A DNA stretch of 44,060 nt, from positions 1 through 44,060 of the forward strand of contig JAJEAH010000065.1 in the NCBI GenBank assembly GCA_022824225.1. Reading direction: 5' to 3'. Position numbers and translations under genes: made by a program. The notes beneath the pieces are model-generated. The model was given only the letters and a program-made list of their open reading frames with translations. It was not told where the DNA came from and did no database searches. This DNA comes from Chloroflexota bacterium (GTDB taxonomy: Bacteria > Chloroflexota > UBA11872 > VXOZ01). Positions 92 through 14,415 of this stretch are shown here, piece by piece. Position 1 is the stretch's first letter. Every line of letters starts with the position of its first letter.

Positions 92-1468
92 CTATTCCTT
101 CGGTATCAGAAGCTCGTTGACGATGTCATTGGCCACGCGGCCGTACTCTTCGGGCGTCAGTTCGCCGGCATCGTAGGCGTCGAAGTGCGGGCGCACCGCG
201 GCGCCGACGTCGCCCCACGTGGGATAGCCGTTCATGCCGTAGTTCGCCGGCGGGCTGAACGCAGCCTGCGTCGCATGGGCGATGGCATCGAAGCCTACGG
301 TCTCTTTGAGTTGCTCAGCCGGCATATTCACCGCGGTCCGCACCGCCGAAATGGTGTGGCCCATGGCCAGCGTGAACTCCGTGTTGGGCTCCGGCTCCAT
401 CATCCAGCGGTTAACCGCCCACGTCTCATCGGGATTCAGGCTGAAGCCGACGAGGATTGCCGGGAACCAAGAACGGCCGGAGATGTTCGCGTCCGCGCTG
501 AACGGCAGAGTCGCGCCGATGGCCTCGAATTCCACCTGGCGGTAGCCGTTGGTAATGTTCATGCCGACCTTGCCGGTCTCCCAGATGGCGCGCCCGCCGG
601 TATTAGCCGCCCCCAGTCCTTCCACGTCCTCCGGACTTGGCACCACGCGGTGCTTGAGCTTGAGGTCTACCCAGTAGGCCAGCCCCTCGATGAACTTCGG
701 CCGGTCCATCAGGCCGATCTTCTGCTCGTTATCCCAAGCAATCTGGCCGAAGTACGCGCCGCGCATGAAGCCGCGCCGTCCGTCGGAAGCCGAAACGCCG
801 CCATTGTGCCCAAACTGCTCGTTGCCCTGCGTCATCGCTCGGGCGTACTCCAGGAACGTATCCATGTTCCACGAGGCGTCGGTGGGGTCGATAGGCGGCG
901 GCTCCAGGCCGGCAGTGTCTAGGATCGTCTTATTGAGCAGCACGGCGTCGCAATTACCGGAGCCGGGCCAGCCGTAAAGTAGCCCGTCTACGGTCCAGTG
1001 CGTCAGGCTGTTGGGGAGAAAGTGTTCTGAGGGTACCAGGCCGTCCGCCTTGAAGAATTCGTCCAAAGGCGACAGGATTTCGCCCTCGATGAGGTCGGCA
1101 AACGAGCCCCAACTGGTGCGCAAGAAGTCGATGGGAACGCCTGACGCCGCCTGGACGAGCAACTTGGTCTTCGCTTCGTCCCCGCTGGACATATTCTGGA
1201 TAGTAATGGTTATATTGGGGTTTTCGGCCTCGTACTTGTCGAAGAGTGCACGCACCTTGAGGGTGGCGCTATCGGAATCGCGTGAGAGATACGTGAGTTG
1301 CACGTCCTCAGCCGGCGCGGGCGCGGCTTCGGCTTTCTCTTCCGGGGCCGCCATCTCTTCCGTTGGCGCGGCTACCTGCGCCGCGCCGCACGCGGCAAGG
1401 AATGCCGCCCCGCCAACTACCGGCACTGCCCCCAGTACCGTGCGCCGCATGAATCGTGTCTGTGCCAT
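92..1468 (-). CDS. Extracellular solute-binding lipoprotein (ABC transporter family 1 type)
   Basis: The 458-residue protein starts with a twin-arginine leader (R8-R9) and a hydrophobic stretch ending in lipobox LAAC, with the lipidated Cys near residue 27. An Ala/Glu/Pro linker follows, then a periplasmic-binding-protein fold in which [12 protein letters not shown] and [15 protein letters not shown] are typical of sugar-binding family 1. I chose ATG 1468 because GAGGAGG lies just upstream and the leader begins there; the open frame runs back to 1570. The role is presumably capture of a carbohydrate or similar solute for an ABC importer. No permease gene is visible: downstream is off-window and upstream is the divergent uvrA. 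The substrate cannot be told. Confidence 0.88.
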
Positions 1469-1569
1469 GACCGTTCCTCCTCGAGGTTGGGATTTAAGGC
1501 CTGCAAACGCCGCCGCACGTTGCGGGGGCGCCCACCCTCGGCGGGTGTGTGCTCTTGCGCGGCGGCTCA

Positions 1570-1599
1570 ATTATCACGCCTGCCTGGCGTGACTGTCCA
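1570..1599 (-). promoter_or_regulatory. Possible sigma70-type promoter for the solute-binding lipoprotein
   Basis: On the minus strand TGGACA (1594-1599) and GATAAT (1570-1575) are separated by 18 bp, each one base off consensus. It would fire about 100 bp upstream of the start at 1468. The rest of the 1469-1777 divergent spacer shows nothing else I can name, and I see no convincing uvrA promoter. Confidence 0.35.
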
Positions 1600-1777
1600 T
1601 ACTACCGCTGGTGCTCAGATTACTGTACCGAGCACTGCGCGTCAATGTTCTGCTCCCTTGTCGGCATCGTGGTACTATGGAGACTGTTTCCCGAAACTGC
1701 TACAGGTCGTTCTTCTCTGCATAGCATGTCGTATCCGAGCAGACGCCGCGCGCCGCGAGGGCAGAGGTTTCCCAGCC

Positions 1778-4700
1778 ATGGCTGAAGAGTACATTCGCAT
1801 CCGCGGCGCCCGTGAACACAACCTCCGCAGCATTGACCTGGACATCCCCCGCGAGAAGCTGGTGGTCGTCACCGGTCTCTCCGGTTCCGGCAAGTCGAGC
1901 CTGGCGTTCGACACCATCTTCGCCGAAGGGCAGCGGCGCTACGTGGAGTCGCTCTCGGCCTACGCCCGCCAGTTCCTCGGCATGTTGGAAAAGCCGGACG
2001 TGGACCACATCGACGGCCTCTCGCCGGCCATTTCCATCGATCAGAAGGGCGCCAGCCGTAACCCGCGCTCCACCGTCGGCACGGTCACGGAAGTCTACGA
2101 CTACTTGCGCCTGCTCTTTGCCCGCATCGGCGTGCCCCACTGCCCGCAGTGTGGGCGCGAAATCTCCCAGCAGACCGTGCAACAAATGGTGGACACGCTG
2201 CTCCACCTGCCCGATAGCACGCGCTACATGATCCTGGCGCCAATCGTGCAGGACCGCAAAGGCGAGTACCGCCAAGTGTTCCAGGACGCCCGCCAAGCGG
2301 GGTACGTGCGGGTGCGGGTGGACGGCACGGTCTACGACCTGGAGGAAACGCCGGCGCTGGACCGCTACAAGCAGCACACCATTGAAGTCGTAGTGGACCG
2401 TCTGGTGAACCGGCGCGGCGATACGGACCGGACACGGGTGGCGGATTCGTTGGAGACGGCGCTGCGCCTGGGCTCCGGCGTGGTGCGGGTGGTGCTAGTG
2501 GACGGCGCCGGGCGGCAGTCTGGCGAAAACGGTAACGCGCTAGGCCGTCATTCCGACGGAAGCCGCGGTTCTGATGTCCGTCATTCCCGCGAAAGCGGGA
2601 CTCCTGATGTCCGTCATTCCCGCGAAAGCGGGAATCCATCCGATTCCCATGCCGGTGATAGCGAGAACCTACCCACCCGTCACTCCCGCGAAAGCGGGAC
2701 TCCTGATGTCCGTCATTCCCGCGAAAGCGGGAATCCATCCGATTCCCATGCCGGCGACAGCGAGAACACACCCACCCGTCACTCCCGCGAAAGCGGGAGT
2801 CCATCCGGCGGGACGGCACAGGCTATTCGTGCAACGGAAATTGAAGCCGACGCGAGCCAAGAGAAGATGGATTCCCGTTTTCACGGGAATGACGGCAAGA
2901 GTGGCAACGACGGCAAGGCTGGCATCGACGGCGAAAGCGACCCCCCGACAGGCCGTTATCCCAGCGCAAGCGGGACTCCTGATGTTCGTCATTCCCGCAA
3001 AAGTCGGAGCCCTGATGTCCGTCATTCCCGCGAAAGTGGGAATCCATCCGGTCTTCATTCCGACGACAGCGAGAACACACCCACCCGTCATTCCCGCGAA
3101 GGCGGGAATCCATCCGATTCCCATGCCGGCGACAGCGAGAACACACCCACCCGTCACTCCCGCGAAAGCGGGAATCCATCCGGTCTTCATTCCGACGACA
3201 GCGAGAACACACCCACCCGTCACTCCCGCGAAAGCGGGAATCCATCCGGCGGGACGGCACAGGCTATTCGTGCAACGGAAATTGAAGTCGACGCGAGCCA
3301 AGAGAAGATGGATTCCCGTTTTCACGGGAATGACGGGCAGGGCGGGACTGATGGGCAGGGCGGGAATGACGGGCGGGGCGAAGATGACGTACAGGAAGGC
3401 TATAGCGGACAGGGCGGGAATGACGAAATAGGCGGGAGTGACGGACGGGCAGGCAATTACGCGCAGGGCGGGAATGACGGGCAGGGCAGGAGTGGCGGAG
3501 AGAATACCGGCGGCAACCCCGAACCCGTAGAAATCCTCTTCTCCGAGCAATTCGCCTGCGTGCACTGCGGCGTCTCCCTTGGCGAGGTGGAGCCGCGCAC
3601 CTTCTCCTTCAATAGCCCCCACGGCGCGTGCCCGGAGTGCACGGGCATCGGCACAACCATGGTGTTCGACCCGGACCTCATCGCGCCCAACAAGCGGCTC
3701 TCGCTTTTGGAGGGTGCAATACTGCCCTGGTCGCGCCTTGGCTCCAAGGACACATATCTCTATCAGGTAGTGAAGGCAGTGGGGGCGAAGTACGGCTTTT
3801 CCCTTAGCGTTCCGCTGGCCGAAATCGCGCCGGAACACGTGGACATCTTGCTGTACGGCATCCAGGAGCGTCTGCCGGTGCCGGTAGTTGACCGCTTTGA
3901 CAAGACCCGCACCTTCATGTCCGAATTCGAAGGCGTGATCCCCAATCTGGAACGGCGGCACAAGCAGACCGATTCGGACTACATGCGCCAGGAAATCGAA
4001 CGCTTCATGACCGTGCAGCCGTGTCCCGCCTGCCAGGGCGCGCGCCTGAAGCCCGAGAGCCTCGCCGTAACCCTTAGCGACCACACCATCGCGCAAGTAA
4101 CGGCCTTTGCCGTGAAAGACGCCCGCGCCTGGTTCGAGGCGTTGCCGCTCTCGGAGCGCGAGCGCCTGATCGGCCGCCAGATTCTCAAGGAAATCCTGGC
4201 CCGGCTGCACTTCTTGGAAAACGTGGGGCTGGACTACCTGACCCTGGACCGCGCCACAGCCACGCTTTCCGGCGGCGAAGCCCAGCGCATTCGTCTGGCG
4301 ACGCAGATTGGTTCGGGCCTGGTGGGCGTGCTCTACATTCTGGACGAGCCGTCTATCGGCCTGCACCAGCGCGACAACCGCCGCCTCATCGCCACGCTCA
4401 GCGGCTTGCGCGACCTGGGCAACAGCGTGCTGGTGGTGGAGCATGATGAAGATACCATCCGCTCCGCCGATCACGTCATCGATATTGGGCCGGGGGCCGG
4501 TGAATACGGCGGCCGCGTGGTGGCGGCGGGACCCCTGGAGGACGTGATGGCGGTGGAGGACTCGCTGACGGCGGCCTTTCTGACCGGCAAGCGGCAGATC
4601 GCCGTGCCCCGCGAGCGGCGCGGCGCCGGGACAAGCGCGGCTCAGGCAACCGCTGCCCGCGCGGAAAAAGCCGCCGCGCCACCGTCACGGTCGCGGTCAC

Positions 4701-5770
4701 GGGCGCAAGCGGCGCGCGGCGCCGACTCCGGAAAAGCCCCCGGCGGGAAGATTACGGTGAAAGGCGCCCGGGCCAACAATCTCAAGAGCATAGACGTGAG
4801 CTTTCCGTTGGGCCGCTTCATCGGCGTCACCGGCGTCTCCGGCTCCGGCAAGAGCACGCTCGTCATAGACGTGCTCTACCGTCGCCTGGCGCAGGAAATC
4901 TACAACAGCCGCGAGCGTCCCGGCCCGCATGACACGATCCTGGGCTTGGATAGCATCGACAAGGTCATCGACATCAACCAGCAGCCCATCGGACGCACGC
5001 CCCGGTCGAATCCGGCCACGTATACCGGCGCGTTCACCCCCATGCGCGAGCTGTTCGCCAAGACGCCGGAAGCGCGCGTCCGCGGCTACAAACCCGGCCG
5101 CTTCTCCTTCAATGTCAAAGGCGGCCGCTGCGAGGCCTGCCGGGGCGACGGCATCATCACCATCGAAATGCAGTTCCTGCCGGACGTCTACGTGCCCTGC
5201 GAGGTCTGCGACGGCAAACGCTACAACCGCGAGGCGCTGGAAGTGATGTATAAGGGCAAGACCATCGCCGTCGTGCTGGACCTCACCATCGACGAAGCCG
5301 CCACGTTCTTCGAAAACGTCCCCAGCATCCACAACAGGTTCAGGACTCTGGTGGACGTGGGCCTGGGCTACATGCGGGTGGGCCAGCCGGCCACCACGCT
5401 TTCCGGCGGCGAGGCGCAGCGCGTCAAGCTGGCCGCCGAGCTTTCCAAACGCGCCACCGGCCGCACGCTCTACATCCTGGATGAACCCACCACCGGCCTG
5501 CACTTCGCCGACGTGGAACGCCTACTGGAGGTGCTGCAACGCCTGGTGGATACCGGCAATACGGTGATCGTGATCGAACACAACCTGGAAGTGATCAAGT
5601 GCGTGGACTGGGTGATCGACCTCGGCCCCGAGGGCGGCGACGCCGGCGGCGAACTGGTTGCCGAAGGCACACCGGAAACGCTCGCCCACCTGCCCCACTC
5701 CTACACCGGCGTCTACCTGCGCCAGGTCCTGGAACGCGACGGCGCCCTAGAAAAAGCCCACGCGTCGTAA
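1778..5770 (+). CDS. uvrA: UvrA, excinuclease ABC subunit A, with a large in-frame repeat insertion
   Basis: UvrA is the DNA-damage-recognition ATPase of nucleotide excision repair. At 1330 residues it is far longer than the usual ~940. Landmarks: Walker [10 protein letters not shown] at ~33; CPQC in the UvrB-binding region at ~122; CVHC at ~594; first signature LSGGEAQR at ~830 and LYILDEP at ~852; second Walker [10 protein letters not shown] at ~1019; zinc finger CEAC at ~1118 and CEVC at ~1141; second signature ~1208 followed by [10 protein letters not shown]. The start is set by [15 protein letters not shown], the family N-terminus; the frame is open further upstream. Residues ~246-580 are a repeat-derived insert (separate entry), between the end of the UvrB-binding region and the strand leading to CVHC. 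A ~45-residue Ala/Arg-rich linker also separates the two halves. All catalytic motifs are intact. Confidence 0.95.
2514..3516 (+). repeat. Array of palindromic REP-like repeats inserted in frame in uvrA
   Basis: About ten copies of a unit built on GTCATTCCCGCGAAAGCGGG are translated as [10 protein letters not shown] or near variants (two as [10 protein letters not shown], one as [10 protein letters not shown]). Two copies of the opposite half, ATGGATTCCCGTTTTCACGG, read [11 protein letters not shown] ~115-bp block, including the segment read [13 protein letters not shown], occurs twice (~2775-2893 and ~3225-3336). The tail (~3330-3500) is a degenerate GGGCAGGGCGGGAATGAC tandem giving Gly/Asn/Asp-rich peptide. 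No stop or frameshift occurs over about 1 kb. The same element occurs outside genes at 42499-42600 and 43918-43935. Confidence 0.9.
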
Positions 5771-5985
5771 GACGAGCCGAAAGCGCCGCGCAAGGTTTTG
5801 AAACCAATGAGACCTGAAAGTGCAGGGCAGGTAAGCACTGACGAGGCGCTTTTCCACCGGCGTGAGGCAGCCTCTTGATTAGGAAGGTCTGGTTCGAATC
5901 TCTCAATGGCCAACGCAATGTGCCATAATGATTGACTAAAGCAGACCTTAGCATAGAGACCCAATTGCAGGTAACGGTAAATCCG

Positions 5986-6237
5986 ATGCAGGCTGAAGCG
6001 AGAGTCATTAGCGTCGCGCCTGAAAGCGAATTGGGGCGACTGCTGGAAGAGGTCGGCGCGGCCCCGGTAATCCTTGAGAAAGAGGGGGAACTCTTTTCAT
6101 TGGTCCGGGAAGACGCTAAAGACATCTGGGCAATGTACGACCCGGAGAAGGTTAGGGAAGCGTTGCGCCAGTGTACAGGCGTCTTGGCGGGCGTCGATCG
6201 GGAGAGCCTGCTCAGCGACGTTCGTGCAGCGCGTTAG
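5986..6237 (+). CDS. Small Phd/antitoxin-like protein
   Basis: This 83-residue acidic protein runs MQAEARVISVAPESEL, then APVILEKEGELFSLVRED and ends in GVLAGVDRESLLSDVRAAR. The pattern of a short N-terminal strand, a statement like 'VILEKEG..F.LVRED' and a charged helical tail resembles Phd/YefM-type antitoxin-like ORFs, but I cannot place it in a named family with certainty. ATG 5986 is chosen; a TTG at 5932 would add 18 residues and has no ribosome-binding site. No toxin gene follows: the next gene is convergent. It stands alone 215 bp after uvrA. Confidence 0.55.
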   Translation: MQAEARVISVAPESELGRLLEEVGAAPVILEKEGELFSLVREDAKDIWAMYDPEKVREALRQCTGVLAGVDRESLLSDVRAAR

Positions 6238-6305
6238 GAAGAAAGCAGCGGTTTGTGACATTCGATTGACCACAGAGATGCCGAATAGTTGTTTAGGTCA
6301 AGTGT

Positions 6306-8399
6306 TCACTCCCACCACTGAGGGAATCCCTGCACTAGCGTGCGTCGCTGGCGAGTTTCGACAATAGTGCCATCTTCTGTTGAATAGACACGGCGGATGG
6401 GGTCACTTGAAATGACACTTCCCATATAGTGACCATCTTCGCGGAACCAGCGGAGTCTCTTCCTTTCAACTAGGCCAAATCCGGTCTGGGCGATTACCAG
6501 GTCGCCACCATCGAAGGTATCGATGAGGGCGTGTAGAGAGTCATCGCGCAGAACATATAGTCTTGTATCTGTCAAGAGATAGAGGTAGTCCCCCGTGTCG
6601 ACAATTCGGCGCGGTACATTGCCAATGTCGTATACCCTAACACCTCTTCCATTATCATCAACCAGCACGATTCGGCCAGAGTAACCAGCAAGATATACAG
6701 AATTGGATTTGGCGGCGAAGCTTGCGGCATATATCCAGTCGGATGCTTGAATCTCACTGACCTCGATTCCTATCGTCGCAGTGAATTCGAGCTCTCCAGC
6801 TCTATGCTCTGACCGACTAAGCTCTTGGTAAAACCTTGCGCCTGCATATTCGGATAGAGCACTCGCCTCGACGCCAGTGAGTAACTCTGTCGCTAGATTT
6901 AGCTCTTTCATTCTTTCCTCGGCTTGTGGGTCGGCCGCGTTAAGATCAGGATGATACTGCTTGGCAAGATCCCGGTAGCGACGCTTTACCTCTTCAGGGG
7001 CAATTGGCAGTGAGAGACCCATGAAGGAGAGCGCCCGTTCCACCTCAGAGCTTGCTCCACATCTGCTGCTTGGAGTGGCAATTTGAGTCCAAACCTCCGT
7101 AATTGGCAGCTTGGCACCCCACAGTCCCACGCCACCTGCGTCTATGCACCAAGCCTCGTCAACGACAGTGAAGAGGTATCGATCACGTGCTTGGGACAGC
7201 GCTACGCATCGGATGTGGTTCTTGAGTTCATCTTTGGGGAAACCGAGCCTCCTTCTAATAGCCGTGATTTCGGGAGCTTCATCAAGCGCTGTTTCGAAGA
7301 CCATTCCTAGGTCGTCATCATAGGCATGGGCAACACAGTCCTGAGACATGGCGATAAGACCGCTACCAAGGGGATGAACGCCCACACGGTAGGTGCCGTG
7401 CATTAGTCCAGATCTGGCTGCAAGCCTACCAGACCTGTCGTAACGCAATGCAGCAGCTTCAATATCGCCATATCCCTGCGCATTGCCAAGGTCATCAATT
7501 ATAAAAAGACCATCATTAGTTGGATGTATCTGGCGAAAGGCCGGGTCTGGGCGCTCCGATAGAGGGATCTTCACCGTTGGTCCAAGTCGCCAATCGCTGT
7601 CACGAGTCTCGAAGTAGCATCCTCTCCCGGGTGCTACGAGACTCTTACTAGCGACCTGTTTCTCTTCCCATTTCGACGGGGCACGAGGCAAGGGCACGTA
7701 GCTGAGGGATGCAATGTCAATATCTATTAGTTTTTGCGGCTCAAAGTCTATACGATGCGAATTGATGGACCGCTTCGGCAACTCTACTGGAGCACTGGGG
7801 GAACCTGAAAGTATCAGTCTGACTGCGCGCCCGTCCTTGATTCGGACAATCTCTCCAGCTTTCTCCAAATAGGAAATCAGCACTGCAACCCGACGCCCAT
7901 CCTTTTCACCAATGAGCTCCTTTACGTCCGTTTGCAGGCAATTGGGTTGGGCCAGGATCACTTCCCGAATTGCCTGGAAGCGCCGTAGATCTCTTTCGTG
8001 GTGTTTGATCTTGTCGGTCCACGGTTTGAGTTCAGGGAAGGTGGTCACCAGTTCCGCTATGCGGGCAATTCCAAGTTCATCGCCTACGAGGGCAAGAATA
8101 GTACCTCCCTGCTGAAGCGCTGGAATTGACTGAATATCAAAAGAGCGATATTGTTGGCGGGTTTCGTTTACCCAAACCGGGATATACTCAAGATTCCTAC
8201 GAGCATGCGCGGCGGCAGCACCATAGTCTCGCTTTGAAATCGCTTCATGAAGCTGGAATAATGAATCAAAATACGACTGGCTTGCATTGGTCTGACGTGG
8301 TCTAGGTGAAATGTCATCGCTTTCGTCAGCTCGGGAACTATGAGCTTCCTCCCCAATAGTGGAACCCATCCCCAGTAGTCTCTTGATGAGTCCGACCAC
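6306..8399 (-). CDS. Chimeric protein: winged-helix-like region, beta-propeller-like repeats and an inserted DnaJ domain
   Basis: The protein has 697 residues. An N-terminal helical part (LFQLHEAISKRDYGAAAAHA looks TPR-like) leads to a winged-helix-like stretch (REVILAQPNCLQTDVKELIG ... ISYLEKAGEIVRIKDGRAV). Next comes beta-rich sequence of propeller type (GLFIIDDLGNAQGYGDIEA; PLGSGLIAMSQDCVAHAYDD). A J domain sits around residues 450-510, with the HPD triad in AKQYHPDLN near 482-484. More propeller-like repeats follow (NSVYLAGYSGRIVLVDDNGR; TGDYLYLLTDTRLYVLRDD). I prefer GTG 8399, which has ACGGAGG five bases upstream; a TTG at 8435 extends the frame by 12 codons. It lies 39 bp after pheT on the same strand. 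The DNA looks clearly less GC-rich than its neighbours, suggesting transfer. It presumably recruits an Hsp70; the client is unknown. Confidence 0.75.
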   Translation of the reverse strand: MVGLIKRLLGMGSTIGEEAHSSRADESDDISPRPRQTNASQSYFDSLFQLHEAISKRDYGAAAAHARRNLEYIPVWVNETRQQYRSFDIQSIPALQQGGTILALVGDELGIARIAELVTTFPELKPWTDKIKHHERDLRRFQAIREVILAQPNCLQTDVKELIGEKDGRRVAVLISYLEKAGEIVRIKDGRAVRLILSGSPSAPVELPKRSINSHRIDFEPQKLIDIDIASLSYVPLPRAPSKWEEKQVASKSLVAPGRGCYFETRDSDWRLGPTVKIPLSERPDPAFRQIHPTNDGLFIIDDLGNAQGYGDIEAAALRYDRSGRLAARSGLMHGTYRVGVHPLGSGLIAMSQDCVAHAYDDDLGMVFETALDEAPEITAIRRRLGFPKDELKNHIRCVALSQARDRYLFTVVDEAWCIDAGGVGLWGAKLPITEVWTQIATPSSRCGASSEVERALSFMGLSLPIAPEEVKRRYRDLAKQYHPDLNAADPQAEERMKELNLATELLTGVEASALSEYAGARFYQELSRSEHRAGELEFTATIGIEVSEIQASDWIYAASFAAKSNSVYLAGYSGRIVLVDDNGRGVRVYDIGNVPRRIVDTGDYLYLLTDTRLYVLRDDSLHALIDTFDGGDLVIAQTGFGLVERKRLRWFREDGHYMGSVISSDPIRRVYSTEDGTIVETRQRRTLVQGFPQWWE

Positions 8400-8474
8400 G
8401 ATGGCCTCCGTTAGTCGCACTATTGCTCGCCGCAATGTGGGTTGGCTAGAGTAGTGCTCAATCTACAAGAGTGG

Positions 8475-10940
8475 TTACCGCAGTGTGGCTTGGAGTGACA
8501 CTTGGAGCTTGAAGATGATGCGGTCGCGGATCTTGTTGACTTCGTTGTCGTTCAGGGTGCGGTCCGGGGCGCGGAAGGTGAGGGTATAGGCCAGGCTGCG
8601 CTTGCCGTCGGGCACTTGCGGACCCTGGTACACGTCGAAGAGTTCCACGCTTTCCAGCAAGTCGCCGCCTGCGTCGCGCACCTCACGCACCACGCGTTCG
8701 GCGGGCACCTCCGCATCCAGCACGATCGCCAAGTCTTGCACCACGGCCGGGTGGCGGGACGGCGGCGCAAACTGCGGCGTTTCCCGGGCCAGATCGACCA
8801 GAGCCCCCAGATTCAGCACCAGGGCCAGCACCCGTTGGTCGATGTCGTAGGCCGCGCTCACCTCGGCGTTGATTTCACCGACAATGCCAACCACCTGGTC
8901 CGTGCGGCCCTGGCGCGCCGTCACCGTTGCCGCGCGGTACGGGTGGAACGTGGGATGTTGCACCGGCGCGAAGTGGTAGGCGGCAATGCCGAACCGCCAC
9001 ATGATCTGATCTACCACGCCTTTGGCGGTATAGAACGTATTGACGGCGCGGGCGCCCCACTGCTCGGTGCGCGATTCGCCCAGCACCGCGGTGAGCAAGC
9101 GGCGCTCCTCCGGCAATTTGGACTGTTCCGGCAAGAACACGGGCGCGATCTCGAAGAGGCGCACGTCGTGGGGCTGGCGGCGCAGGTTGGCGGCCAGCGT
9201 TTCCAGCAGGCCCGCCAGCGAGACCGTGCGCAGCGTGCTCGCTTCGGACGTAAACGGGTTCTTGAGTTCCAGGGGCGCCGCATGGAGAGGCAGCACCGCC
9301 TCGGCTACGTCCCGCGCCGGGCCCGCGGGCAGTTCCGGCGCCACGCCTTTTGGCAGAAGGCGTGCCATGCGGGCGGAATTCGTCAGCGAATAGGTAATCA
9401 CTTCGGCGAAGCCCGCGCCCACCATCGTCTGCTTGGCGCGGTCGGTCCACACGCGCAGCGGCGCCGGGCGGGCTTCCGGCAGCGGGCCGGCCGGCATGGT
9501 GGTGGGGATATTGTCGTAACCCACCGTGCGGGCGACCTCTTCCACCAGGTCCGCCGCGCAGCTTACGTCTTGCCGGTGCAGGGGCACCGCAACGTGCAGC
9601 CGGTCGTTTTGCCGGCGATACGAAAAACCCAGGGGCCGCAGCTTTTCGGCGGCCACGGTCAGGGGAATATCCATGCCGAGCAGCCGGGAAATATCCTCTG
9701 CGGAGAACTCGATTTCGGGCCGCTGCTGCGGGCGCACGTATGAGTCCGCGGCGTGGCTGCGCGCGCGGCCGCCGGCGATTTCGGCAATGAGTTCGATTGC
9801 GCGGTCGCGGGCCAGCGGGGCCAGTTCCGGCGGCACGCCCTGTTCGAAGCGCTTGGACGCCTCGCTGGGCAGGGCCAGCGCCTGCCGCGTGCGGCGAATC
9901 GAAGTGGGGCTGAAACTGGCGGCCTCCAGCAGGATACGCGTCGTCTCGGACGTTACTTCCGTATCCAGGCCGCCCATCACGCCCGCCAGCGCAATCGGGC
10001 CGTTGGGATCGGCAATGACGAGCATGCTGGCGGTCAGGTCGCGTTTCTCGCCGTCCAGCGTCGTCAGCCTTTCGCCCAGCCGCGCCCGCCGTACGATGAT
10101 ATTGCCGTCCGCAACCGTGTCGTAGTCGAAGGCGTGCAGCGGCTGCCCAAACTCCAGCATCACGTAGTTCGTAATGTCCACGATGTTGTTGATCGGGCGC
10201 ATACCGGCCGCCTCCAGGCGGTCCTGCATCCAACGGGGAGACGGCCCGACGGTAACCTCGATCACCACGCCCGCGGCGTAGCGCGCGCAGAGTTCCGGTT
10301 CTTTGATATCCACGCGCACCGTCGGCAAGGTCGGCGTATCGAGGCGGTGGGTGGCGGGCTGGCGCAGGCGCTCACCCGTGAGCGCGGCAACTTCCCGCGC
10401 CACGTTGATCATGGAGAGGCAATCGCTGCGGTTGGGCTTGAGGTCAAGCTCCAGAATAGTGTCGCCCAGATAGTCCTGGAGCGGCGTGCCCACCGGCGCT
10501 GAGGGGTCCAGAATGAGAATGCCCTCGTGGTCTTCGCCCAGGCCCAGTTCCCTGGCCGAGCAGACCATGCCCTCGGACTTGATGCCCCGCAATACGACCG
10601 GCTTGAGCTCGATGCGCTGGGGTGTTTCGCTGTACGCGTCGTTCAACACCGCGCCGAGCAGCGCCACCGGCACCACGTCGCCTTCGGCAATGTTCGTTGC
10701 GCCGGTCACGAGCGTGGGTTGCTCCGGCTGGCCGTAGTCCACGGTGACAAGCTGCAAGCGGTCGGCGTTGGGATGCCGCTTGATTTCCACGATCTTACCC
10801 ACGAACGTATGTTGCCAGAAGTCACCGACGTGGATGACTTGCGCGACTTCGATGCCGGCCATGGTCAGCAGATGCGCCAACTCCTCTACCGGCAGATTTA
10901 CCGGCACGTATTCCTGGAGCCAGCGAAGTGATACACGCAT
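8475..10940 (-). CDS. pheT: Phenylalanyl-tRNA synthetase beta subunit
   Basis: At 821 residues this is the full length expected for bacterial PheT, which pairs with PheS in an (alpha-beta)2 enzyme charging tRNA-Phe. The start MRVSLRWLQEYVPVNLPVEE is the standard N-terminus. It is followed by the EMAPII-like tRNA-binding domain (KIVEIKRHPNADRLQLVTVD), the B3/B4 editing region (LKPNRSDCLSMINVAREVAA), the B5 domain and catalytic-like core, and a C-terminal ferredoxin-like anticodon-binding domain ending in DRIIFKLQVSLQATLR. GGAGGA lies eight bases before ATG 10940. It follows pheS by 229 bp; the spacer carries a tandem repeat. Confidence 0.97.
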   Translation of the reverse strand: MRVSLRWLQEYVPVNLPVEELAHLLTMAGIEVAQVIHVGDFWQHTFVGKIVEIKRHPNADRLQLVTVDYGQPEQPTLVTGATNIAEGDVVPVALLGAVLNDAYSETPQRIELKPVVLRGIKSEGMVCSARELGLGEDHEGILILDPSAPVGTPLQDYLGDTILELDLKPNRSDCLSMINVAREVAALTGERLRQPATHRLDTPTLPTVRVDIKEPELCARYAAGVVIEVTVGPSPRWMQDRLEAAGMRPINNIVDITNYVMLEFGQPLHAFDYDTVADGNIIVRRARLGERLTTLDGEKRDLTASMLVIADPNGPIALAGVMGGLDTEVTSETTRILLEAASFSPTSIRRTRQALALPSEASKRFEQGVPPELAPLARDRAIELIAEIAGGRARSHAADSYVRPQQRPEIEFSAEDISRLLGMDIPLTVAAEKLRPLGFSYRRQNDRLHVAVPLHRQDVSCAADLVEEVARTVGYDNIPTTMPAGPLPEARPAPLRVWTDRAKQTMVGAGFAEVITYSLTNSARMARLLPKGVAPELPAGPARDVAEAVLPLHAAPLELKNPFTSEASTLRTVSLAGLLETLAANLRRQPHDVRLFEIAPVFLPEQSKLPEERRLLTAVLGESRTEQWGARAVNTFYTAKGVVDQIMWRFGIAAYHFAPVQHPTFHPYRAATVTARQGRTDQVVGIVGEINAEVSAAYDIDQRVLALVLNLGALVDLARETPQFAPPSRHPAVVQDLAIVLDAEVPAERVVREVRDAGGDLLESVELFDVYQGPQVPDGKRSLAYTLTFRAPDRTLNDNEVNKIRDRIIFKLQVSLQATLR

Positions 10941-12370: not shown

Positions 12371-12498
12371 GCCCGTAAAGTGCCTTGCCCACGGATACAT
12401 CGATTGCCTCTCTTACAAGTCTTTCGGCGAAGCCATGCCTACAGCCGGCAAGGCCATGCCTGCAGCATAGTCCTACGGCCCGCCACATCCAACAGCCT

Positions 12499-12527
12499 AC
12501 TATAGCGAAGTTGCTTGCTTATGTCAA
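12499..12527 (-). promoter_or_regulatory. Consensus sigma70 promoter of pheST
   Basis: On the minus strand a perfect TTGACA (12522-12527) and TATAGT (12499-12504) are separated by 17 bp. Transcription would begin near 12492, giving a ~250-nt leader before pheS at 12240. Confidence 0.75.
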
Positions 12528-12659
12528 AATGTGTGGCGAGAATGACAGTGGGGTAGGGCTAACCACGGAAGACGGAGTGACTCACGCGCCCATCACGCCC
12601 AGACCTGCGGTGTGGCCGCAGTTTACCGGACTTCGATGGGACTACCCAGTCTGCTGTGT

Positions 12660-12668
12660 TGCTATACT
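12660..12668 (+). promoter_or_regulatory. Possible extended -10 promoter for the ATPase/nuclease pair
   Basis: TGC followed by TATACT (12663-12668) fits an extended -10 element about 65 bp before ATG 12733. No good -35 is visible. The position fits the only plus-strand transcript needed here. Confidence 0.35.
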
Positions 12669-12732
12669 GAACGGGAAGATTGAGCGCGCCATCCTGCGGC
12701 GTTTGGCCATGCTCGACAGCCTAGGAACCAGC

Positions 12733-14415
12733 ATGTCACCTGCGCCAACTTACAAACCTCTCGAAATCGAGGTAACCGACTTTGGCCCCATCGCCAAAGC
12801 GAAGCTCGACCTGCGCCCGCTGACCGTGTTCGTCGGCCCGAGCAATACGGGGAAGTCGTATCTGGCGACGCTGATCTACGCGCTGCATCGTTTCTTCGGA
12901 GGCTATGCGCCGAATCCAAGCTTTAGTGACAGGGTAGGCCATTCTCTTTTCGATCGATTTGTCGAGTATTGGGGGGACGAGCAAGACATCTCCGAGGAAG
13001 AGAGCAAGGCACTGCTTGCTTGGATGAACCGGCTATTCGACTGCACACAAGGGAAACCCTTGCCGGAAGATTTCCGTGCTCGTGTGCCGGATGACGTTAC
13101 GCCACTGCTTCGTCCTTTGCTCAGAGAGGCGAGTACGCTCGGCGATTTCTTGAACGACGAAATCGCGCGCTGCTTTGGCACCCAGGGTACGGCGCGACTG
13201 ATCCGGCATGGGAGCAGAGACGGCGCACGGGTTGCCCTAAAGCGCCACGTCTCAGAAACGTCTCTTTCGCCAGAGCCATTCGCCTACACATTCACGATGC
13301 AGGGAAGCGAGACTGTACTCAACGCTTCGATACCTGATGCCACGCCCTTGCAGATAAGGAGAGACGATGCTGACTCCTTGGATCGGGATAGGATTGAACA
13401 ATGGATTCTGCGCACGAACCAATCAAGAGAGTATCAGAAGTACGCTGAACAGTATGAGAGACATTCTGCCCAGTTAGCGGAATCACAACAAAGCGAACTT
13501 GCCCGACGCGCTGCGGACGACATGCGGCGCATGGTGCGCAAACAGGCGAGGTCACGGCGCGACGAGCTTGTTGCTTTAGTCGGTACGTCCGTCATTAGCC
13601 CGTTGTATCGAGTGGCCTATTATCTACCCGCAGACCGCGCCGCTCTGATGGATACGCGCAGTCTGATCGTGGCCTCCTTGATCAGACGATCAATGCACAC
13701 GGGTCTCGAGCGCGGTGAAGCCTTGCCGGCACTCACCGGTGTGCTTGGTGACTATCTCGAGAAACTGGTTGTATTCGAAGACTATACTCAGAGAGAACAG
13801 AAAGATGGCTGGAATCTCGCCAGAATGCTTGAGATAGAAATCCTAAAGGGGGAGTTGCGTGAGAATCGATCGGAAACCGGGCACACCACATTCACCTATC
13901 GGCCAGCGGGACGCACGGAGGAAATCCCAATAAGGCAAGCGTCTTCAATGGTTTCAGAGGTAGCGCCATTAGTTCTGTACCTGCGCCAAGTGGTGCAGCC
14001 CGGTGACGTGCTCATCATCGAGGAACCGGAGTCGCACCTGCATCCGGCCATGCAGAGGACGTTCACGCGGCAGCTTGCGGCGGTCGTGCGCGCCGGTGTG
14101 CGGGTGATGATTACGACGCATAGCGATTACGTTCTAGAGGAACTGGGCAACCTCGTGCGCATGTCTGAGTTGCCAGAAGAGCGGCGAGAGGGCTTGACGG
14201 GCGCAGATGTAGCCCTTCGTCCGGACGAGGTGGGCGTGTGGCTGTTCGAGCCCAAGAAACGGCCGAAGGGTTCGGTGGTGAAGGAGATCCCGTTGGATGC
14301 GGACGTTGGCCTCTATGCAGCGGGATACGGCGACGTTACTGAGGCGCTCTACAATACATCGGTAGAAATCGACAGTCGCATCGGAGAGAGCAAGACTGGC
14401 TATGAGTCTCGTTGA
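12733..14415 (+). CDS. AAA15/OLD-like ATPase, first gene of a two-gene cassette
   Basis: This 560-residue SMC/ABC-like ATPase shows LEIEVTDFGPIAKAKLDLRP, then Walker A GPSNTGKSY at ~34-42, a long helical middle (~85-390), SSMVSEVAPLVLYLRQ as the signature-like region, Walker B LIIEEPESHLHP at ~426-437 and a switch His in MITTHSDYVLEEL. This is the AAA_15/OLD architecture common in DNA repair and anti-phage systems (OLD, Gabija GajA, PARIS AriA, Septu-like). No Toprim or nuclease domain is fused at the end. ATG 12733 has AGGAA seven bases upstream; ATG 12709 and earlier in-frame starts are possible. Its last 14 bases overlap the next gene, implying coupled translation. Base composition appears lower in GC than the flanking housekeeping genes. 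Confidence 0.85.
   Translation: MSPAPTYKPLEIEVTDFGPIAKAKLDLRPLTVFVGPSNTGKSYLATLIYALHRFFGGYAPNPSFSDRVGHSLFDRFVEYWGDEQDISEEESKALLAWMNRLFDCTQGKPLPEDFRARVPDDVTPLLRPLLREASTLGDFLNDEIARCFGTQGTARLIRHGSRDGARVALKRHVSETSLSPEPFAYTFTMQGSETVLNASIPDATPLQIRRDDADSLDRDRIEQWILRTNQSREYQKYAEQYERHSAQLAESQQSELARRAADDMRRMVRKQARSRRDELVALVGTSVISPLYRVAYYLPADRAALMDTRSLIVASLIRRSMHTGLERGEALPALTGVLGDYLEKLVVFEDYTQREQKDGWNLARMLEIEILKGELRENRSETGHTTFTYRPAGRTEEIPIRQASSMVSEVAPLVLYLRQVVQPGDVLIIEEPESHLHPAMQRTFTRQLAAVVRAGVRVMITTHSDYVLEELGNLVRMSELPEERREGLTGADVALRPDEVGVWLFEPKKRPKGSVVKEIPLDADVGLYAAGYGDVTEALYNTSVEIDSRIGESKTGYESR

Follow-up and report, generated by a model that had tools for sequence, protein, structure and literature searches.

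J proteins decide where Hsp70 acts. Class C members such as DjlA, HscB and DjlB/C have only the J domain in common with DnaJ; it may be placed anywhere in the chain, and the other domains aim Hsp70, as set out in the available text of PMC8215388. Chaperones of this type also appear in systems of conflict. DnaJ, a class A protein, ties host Hsp40/Hsp70 to an antiphage response, since bNACHT25 requires DnaJ and the DnaJ-DnaK contact for phage sensing (available part of PMC12169576), so that a link between chaperones and phage sensing exists elsewhere. Hsp70-type chaperone parts are found in restriction-type systems, as in the CoCoNuT type IV restriction systems (PMC11090510, in part), and beta-propeller vWA-MoxR ternary systems, for which a conflict role is predicted, include chaperone or co-chaperone components together with TPR and propeller parts (PMC7159879, in part).

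Here we describe a gene in a 44,060-nucleotide stretch of DNA from a Chloroflexota bacterium, referred to throughout as the window, whose product carries a J domain within a predicted beta-propeller. The J domain is the sole part that this protein has in common with DnaJ, which places it in class C. Assignment to class A or B, in which an N-terminal J domain goes with a G/F region and beta-sandwich client domains, was rejected, as the J domain is internal and full-length DnaJ models score at most 42.8 bits compared with the at least 377 that they need.

Results

Gene structure and domain organization

The gene lies on the minus strand, 76 bp downstream of pheT on the same strand, and is a single uninterrupted open frame of 697 codons with no internal stop. 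The open frame can be extended to 8435 (6306-8435, minus strand), but the longer TTG start was rejected in favor of the GTG at 8399 on the basis of the GGAGG positioned upstream of the latter and of homologues that start at the same residue. Scans for promoters and terminators had no usable outcome. The features of the locus are as follows.

6252..8475, no strand: variable slot between the small ORF 5932-6237 and pheT (blastn boundaries, ORFs, Pfam)
8405..8409, minus strand: Shine-Dalgarno-like GGAGG, 5 nt upstream of the GTG at 8399
6306..8399, minus strand: whole gene, GTG start at 8399, stop at 6306-6308, 697 residues (open frame, Shine-Dalgarno sequence and homologues)
8289..8399, minus strand: residues 1-37, low-confidence tail (pLDDT under 50; conserved short basic/hydrophobic start in the alignment)
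8037..8285, minus strand: residues 39-121, predicted helical bundle or repeat (models)
7809..8036, minus strand: residues 122-197, predicted winged helix (model pLDDT 85 overall; Z up to 11.0)
7614..7808, minus strand: residues 198-262, variable linker (lowest conservation)
7107..7613, minus strand: residues 263-431, predicted first part of the propeller (model strands; WD40 alignments)
6870..7061, minus strand: residues 447-510, J domain (Pfam; PDB J domains; HPD at 6945-6953, residues 483-485)
6309..6818, minus strand: residues 528-697, predicted second part of the propeller (model strands; WD40 alignments; conserved in homologues)

From the N to the C terminus the protein is thus composed of a basic tail, a helical bundle, a winged helix, the first part of a WD40-like propeller, a J domain with its HPD motif, and the remaining propeller. 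The sole Pfam match is DnaJ (E = 1.5e-11, residues 460-508 of 697), which passes the Pfam gathering score (44.6 bits against a cut-off of 27.8); J domains in the PDB also match (E 1.6e-9), and the J domain is canonical. Searches of Pfam, PADLOC and NCBIfam at E up to 10 returned the J domain or nothing relevant, with 0 PADLOC families matched by the window protein, and no curated model in Pfam or NCBIfam covers the whole architecture, in keeping with the statement in the preliminary description that no named family has this order.

Predicted structure of the propeller and N-terminal domains

An AlphaFold2 model of the whole protein, built on a 10-row alignment (mean pLDDT 76), places strands at residues 263-430, the J helices at 450-508, and strands again up to residue 690. 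WD40 propellers align over model residues 265-694 (VIA-align 2; top Z 17.1, rmsd 3.9, 270 residues aligned), with rmsd values ranging from 3.9 to 4.8, and the best Foldseek match of the model is BamB (E 7e-10). Because the propeller alignment spans both sides of the J helices, the J domain is modeled as an insertion within the propeller, not as a tail. We predict a closed WD40-type propeller fold with the J domain inside, exact blade count aside. The preliminary description, made from the DNA letters, had read the frame as a J domain inside a propeller-like protein and had proposed structure prediction as a check; the open frame, the Pfam match and the modeled strands flanking the J helices all bear this reading out.

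Modeled alone, the N-terminal part (pLDDT 85) shows a helical bundle followed by a winged helix, whose structural matches reach Z 11.0 (rmsd 1.5, 65 residues aligned), many types tying. Residues 122-197 are accordingly listed as a predicted winged helix-turn-helix fold, as had been surmised for the N terminus from the sequence, and the preceding helices and basic tail are additions to that picture. Z-alpha chains head the list of winged-helix matches, but MarR and Fur types come within 1 Z of them, and we make no claim of Z-DNA binding. A PCI-like reading, with helices and winged helix combined as in proteasome-lid and COP9 subunits, reached a Foldseek E of 0.03-0.1 only and is offered as no more than a lead. 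Against the PDB, profiles built from the N-terminal and post-J sequences yielded nothing convincing. The conserved start of the protein (8289-8399; VVGLIKRLLG in the window, MFGILKNLFG in others) looks amphipathic, and our guess is that it could touch a membrane, model confidence in this segment being very low.

Homologues and their conservation

The homologue search found 17 loci, ten of them (L001-L010) with similarity that reaches past the J domain; four plasmid records (one the same as L003), two IMG/VR contigs and further genomes were added to the set. The order VDEAWC, HPD, TRLYVL is kept in 19/19 loci that span the J domain, which come from several phyla, from plasmids and from two viral contigs and include the partial genes L001, L004 and L010. 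In the window and in every one of these rows, HPD is positioned between helices II and III. The Pfam DnaJ domain was detected in nine of the ten family members scanned; the exception is L009, which is cut off where the J domain starts, close to the end of its contig. L009 is one of three loci that do not span this domain; the others are L048, a remnant with a stop, and L062, in which the N-terminal helical and winged-helix module is encoded as a separate 161-residue protein (3425-3910). The L062 module gene is convergent with a gene (890-3253) bearing an HATPase_c_3 (HSP90-like) domain.

The window's genome is a draft of 87 contigs, and the preliminary description had named the joining of separate genes by misassembly as the result that would overturn it. 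We found no support for such an artifact, whose probability becomes negligible given the identical order in all 19 loci, complete plasmid records included; the homologues, by keeping the J insertion, exclude it.

In five Rhodobacterales pairs dN/dS is 0.05-0.25 in the N-terminal, propeller and J parts and looser in the linkers, and the codon comparison indicates that these three parts are under purifying selection in Rhodobacterales. A tree of the 17 longest rows resolves two deep groups, each with support of 100/100. Rhodobacterales make up the first, together with plasmids, the viral contigs and G391, while the second is mixed and contains the window, a Bacillota MAG, an Acidimicrobiia MAG and other genomes. 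The J-propeller protein is a real, conserved family that has no name. One genome, G913, has two divergent copies (L059 and L060) in two different defence-type surroundings; they are not sisters in the tree.

Probable coupling to DnaK

Five charged residues of DnaJ contact DnaK: R22, K26, R27, K48 and K51 (PMC8215388, in part). The window's genome encodes a full-length DnaK, and no Hsp70 gene was recognized by eye near the homologues. Aligned to E. coli DnaJ, the window J domain presumably keeps three of the five contact charges in kind (K, R, K). With an intact HPD motif, three charges kept and DnaK present in the genome, the J-propeller protein very probably acts through DnaK.

A rare gene in a variable chromosomal slot

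The GC content of the gene is 0.520 compared with 0.630 for the window, within the lowest 0.7% of slices of the same length, and its GC3 is 0.49 against 0.82-0.83 in pheT, pheS and two other window genes, which agrees with the earlier remark that the frame adjoins pheST in less GC-rich DNA. The gene is missing from five of five congeners, which show ordinary J-domain matches only. The blastn match between congener G001 and the window ends at window position 6251 and resumes at pheT, 8476, and in G001 the same uvrA/pheT slot is taken up by a PIN-like ORF (by eye), together with genes for an AAA_21 ATPase and for a DUF4276 protein. G003 and G004 have other genes after pheT, and the contig of G002 ends soon after pheT.

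Other features of the window were observed near the slot. The small ORF 5932-6237 looks by eye like an antitoxin; its G001 homologue is followed by the PIN-like ORF, and since the latter is missing in the window, ORF 5932-6237 may be an orphan beside the J gene. Within the uvrA frame (1298-5770), in-frame short repeats at about 2570-3430 lengthen the protein (HSRESGNPS; PAKAGIH in another frame), and several of these units all align to one and the same stretch of roughly 100 bases in G001, so the repeat copy number differs. On the opposite side of pheST, an AAA_15/AAA_21 ATPase (12385-14415, GC 0.567) is a second island-like gene.

In the window's phylum the family was found in 2 of 400 genomes, namely the window's own and the one with the stand-alone N-terminal module. 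Surveys elsewhere, with the queries counted as well, gave three hits among 345 genomes of the family to which G047 belongs, one of these hits being a remnant, and three among 296 genomes of the class that includes G042, where the genome of L004 is one of the three. With the N-terminal profile, two hits were obtained among 398 genomes of the phylum of G041. That profile matched 12 of 400 genomes in the window's phylum, but ten of the matches were weak and confined to the winged helix, and this count was not used. Among plasmids, 4 of 72,556 records hold most of the protein, and scans of viral contigs with the pre-J and post-J profiles returned the same two each time. Matches in annotated phages were confined to the J segment, PHROGs gave J-type matches plus one weak winged-helix-type match at E 0.09, and the matches listed for BFVD are to propeller-type and unnamed proteins, none of them called a J protein.

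The gene is rare, and these sequence comparisons mark it as horizontally acquired; the GC3 contrast, the absence from all five congeners, the exchanged contents of the slot, the plasmid copies and the viral contigs together argue that it is horizontally mobile. A plain stress co-chaperone unconnected with mobile DNA, which would suit the canonical J domain and the presence of DnaK, is disfavored and very unlikely, given a very patchy distribution (2/400 in the phylum, 3/345 and 3/296 in other groups, queries included) and a foreign base composition.

Gene neighborhoods

According to the annotation, repAB(C) lies upstream of the plasmid copies, and the genes close by are ssb, DUF932, radC, or those for a zincin peptidase and DUF2958; the carriers are RepABC-type plasmids. 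This arrangement, seen in the four plasmid records, favors the strongest rival to a conflict role, in which the protein helps mobile elements to be maintained or transferred by recruiting DnaK to a replication initiator or a transfer complex, the chromosomal copies being relics or cargo of integrated elements. There is precedent in that Hsp70 takes apart RepA and RepE dimers, DnaJ/DnaK serving the P1 RepA and mini-F RepE initiators (PMC8215388, in part). We nonetheless hold a maintenance role to be unlikely, as no replication genes were recognized by eye in the stretches read near the window copy, L002, L059, L060 and L080, and only 4 of 72,556 plasmid records have the gene.

We take the ssb, radC, DUF932 and zincin-peptidase genes beside the plasmid copies to be a typical leading-region or anti-restriction set. 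Their company, and the presence of the gene on two viral contigs, would fit an anti-defence factor with which mobile elements recruit DnaK against the defence proteins of the recipient or mask the host chaperone. However, the main text of a paper on leading regions (PMC11541004) contains neither those plasmid gene names nor DnaJ, and chromosomal copies have restriction and SMC/AAA genes as neighbors, a setting in which one would not look for an anti-defence gene; this role is a distinctly weak candidate.

The surroundings of the other copies are varied. L036 adjoins tail-type genes and L035 adjoins umuDC-like and methylase genes (both by eye); the neighbors of L002 are a type III methylase, ResIII, HNH (by eye) and Hypoth_Ymh, and a 5mC methylase adjoins L058. 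L059 is flanked by Mrr on one side and an LmuB-like SMC protein on the other, the stretch around L060 encodes RmrA-like, nSTAND/HEAT and NACHT proteins, and PDC-S06 AAA proteins are encoded near L080 and L009, with a PrrC-like protein in L080. The flanks of 14 non-plasmid loci (23 genes) were scanned with PADLOC at E up to 1e-3 (one match only at 7e-4), with ten genes from five genomes carrying the family as control. Matches were found for 10 of 23 flank genes and 2 of 10 control genes, a difference that is not significant with this small control (Fisher p = 0.19), and some matches in both sets are generic ATPases. No defence model matched the flanks of L001, L005, L006, L035, L036 or the window. 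A defence context is suggested for the family, not proven. The neighbor survey proposed in the preliminary description has thus brought out a side of the gene not seen there, its mobility and its frequent placement in plasmid, prophage-like or defence-type surroundings.

Discussion

In the reading that we prefer, at a probability of about 45%, the J-propeller protein belongs to class C as an accessory, horizontally mobile member, steers host DnaK to a target and has a role in mobile-element conflict. The J domain would dock on host DnaK and trigger its ATPase, while the propeller, perhaps together with the winged helix, would hold a specific protein or nucleoprotein complex for DnaK to remodel or dismantle. 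A client-holding role for the propeller, already suggested in the preliminary description, would be in line with how class C J proteins commonly work. The target would be part of the conflict between cell and mobile DNA, such as phage or plasmid complexes; a conflict of this kind is suggested by distribution and neighbors. Plasmids, prophage-like DNA and defence-type islands would carry the gene along, and its most likely part would be in defence or sensing. A narrower proposal, a single-gene conflict system in which propeller and winged helix detect a nucleoprotein complex of phage or plasmid origin and enlist host DnaK to dismantle it, is more doubtful. Weighing against a conflict role are the non-significant PADLOC excess in the flanks (p = 0.19), the plasmid backbone genes beside the plasmid copies, which fit maintenance equally, and the lack of any PADLOC match to the protein itself.

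If the preferred reading is true, a guide for the host chaperone is part of the equipment of mobile DNA or of the defence against it. The family would be a one-gene system whose chaperone part hinges on a single residue, the HPD histidine, and its relevance is raised by the recent link between DnaJ and phage sensing (PMC12169576, in part).

Comparison with known systems

Neither this architecture nor a dedicated J-domain defence effector was recognized in our searches of open-licence literature, which covers few subscription papers. Barriot et al. 2020 is reportedly a survey of prokaryotic J proteins and may list the J-propeller architecture. WD40-type propellers (WDR5, Tup1, UTP subunits) and BamB resemble the window protein in the predicted fold of residues about 265-694, but there is no sequence family match, and the window propeller is interrupted by the J domain. 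The vWA-MoxR ternary systems are multi-gene and include AAA+ MoxR and vWA components, neither of which was recognized at the J-propeller loci (PMC7159879, in part). CoCoNuT systems carry Hsp70-like domains, whereas DnaJ, J-domain and propeller give 0 hits in the main text of PMC11090510. bNACHT25 uses the ordinary host DnaJ (PMC12169576, in part), whereas the J-propeller is a dedicated J protein, known from sequence. None of the E. coli class C members is described in the available text of PMC8215388 as having a propeller and winged helix, and the J-propeller family differs from them in being mobile and rare. The novelty is therefore the J-in-propeller architecture, and the kind of protein, a class C J protein, is one already known.
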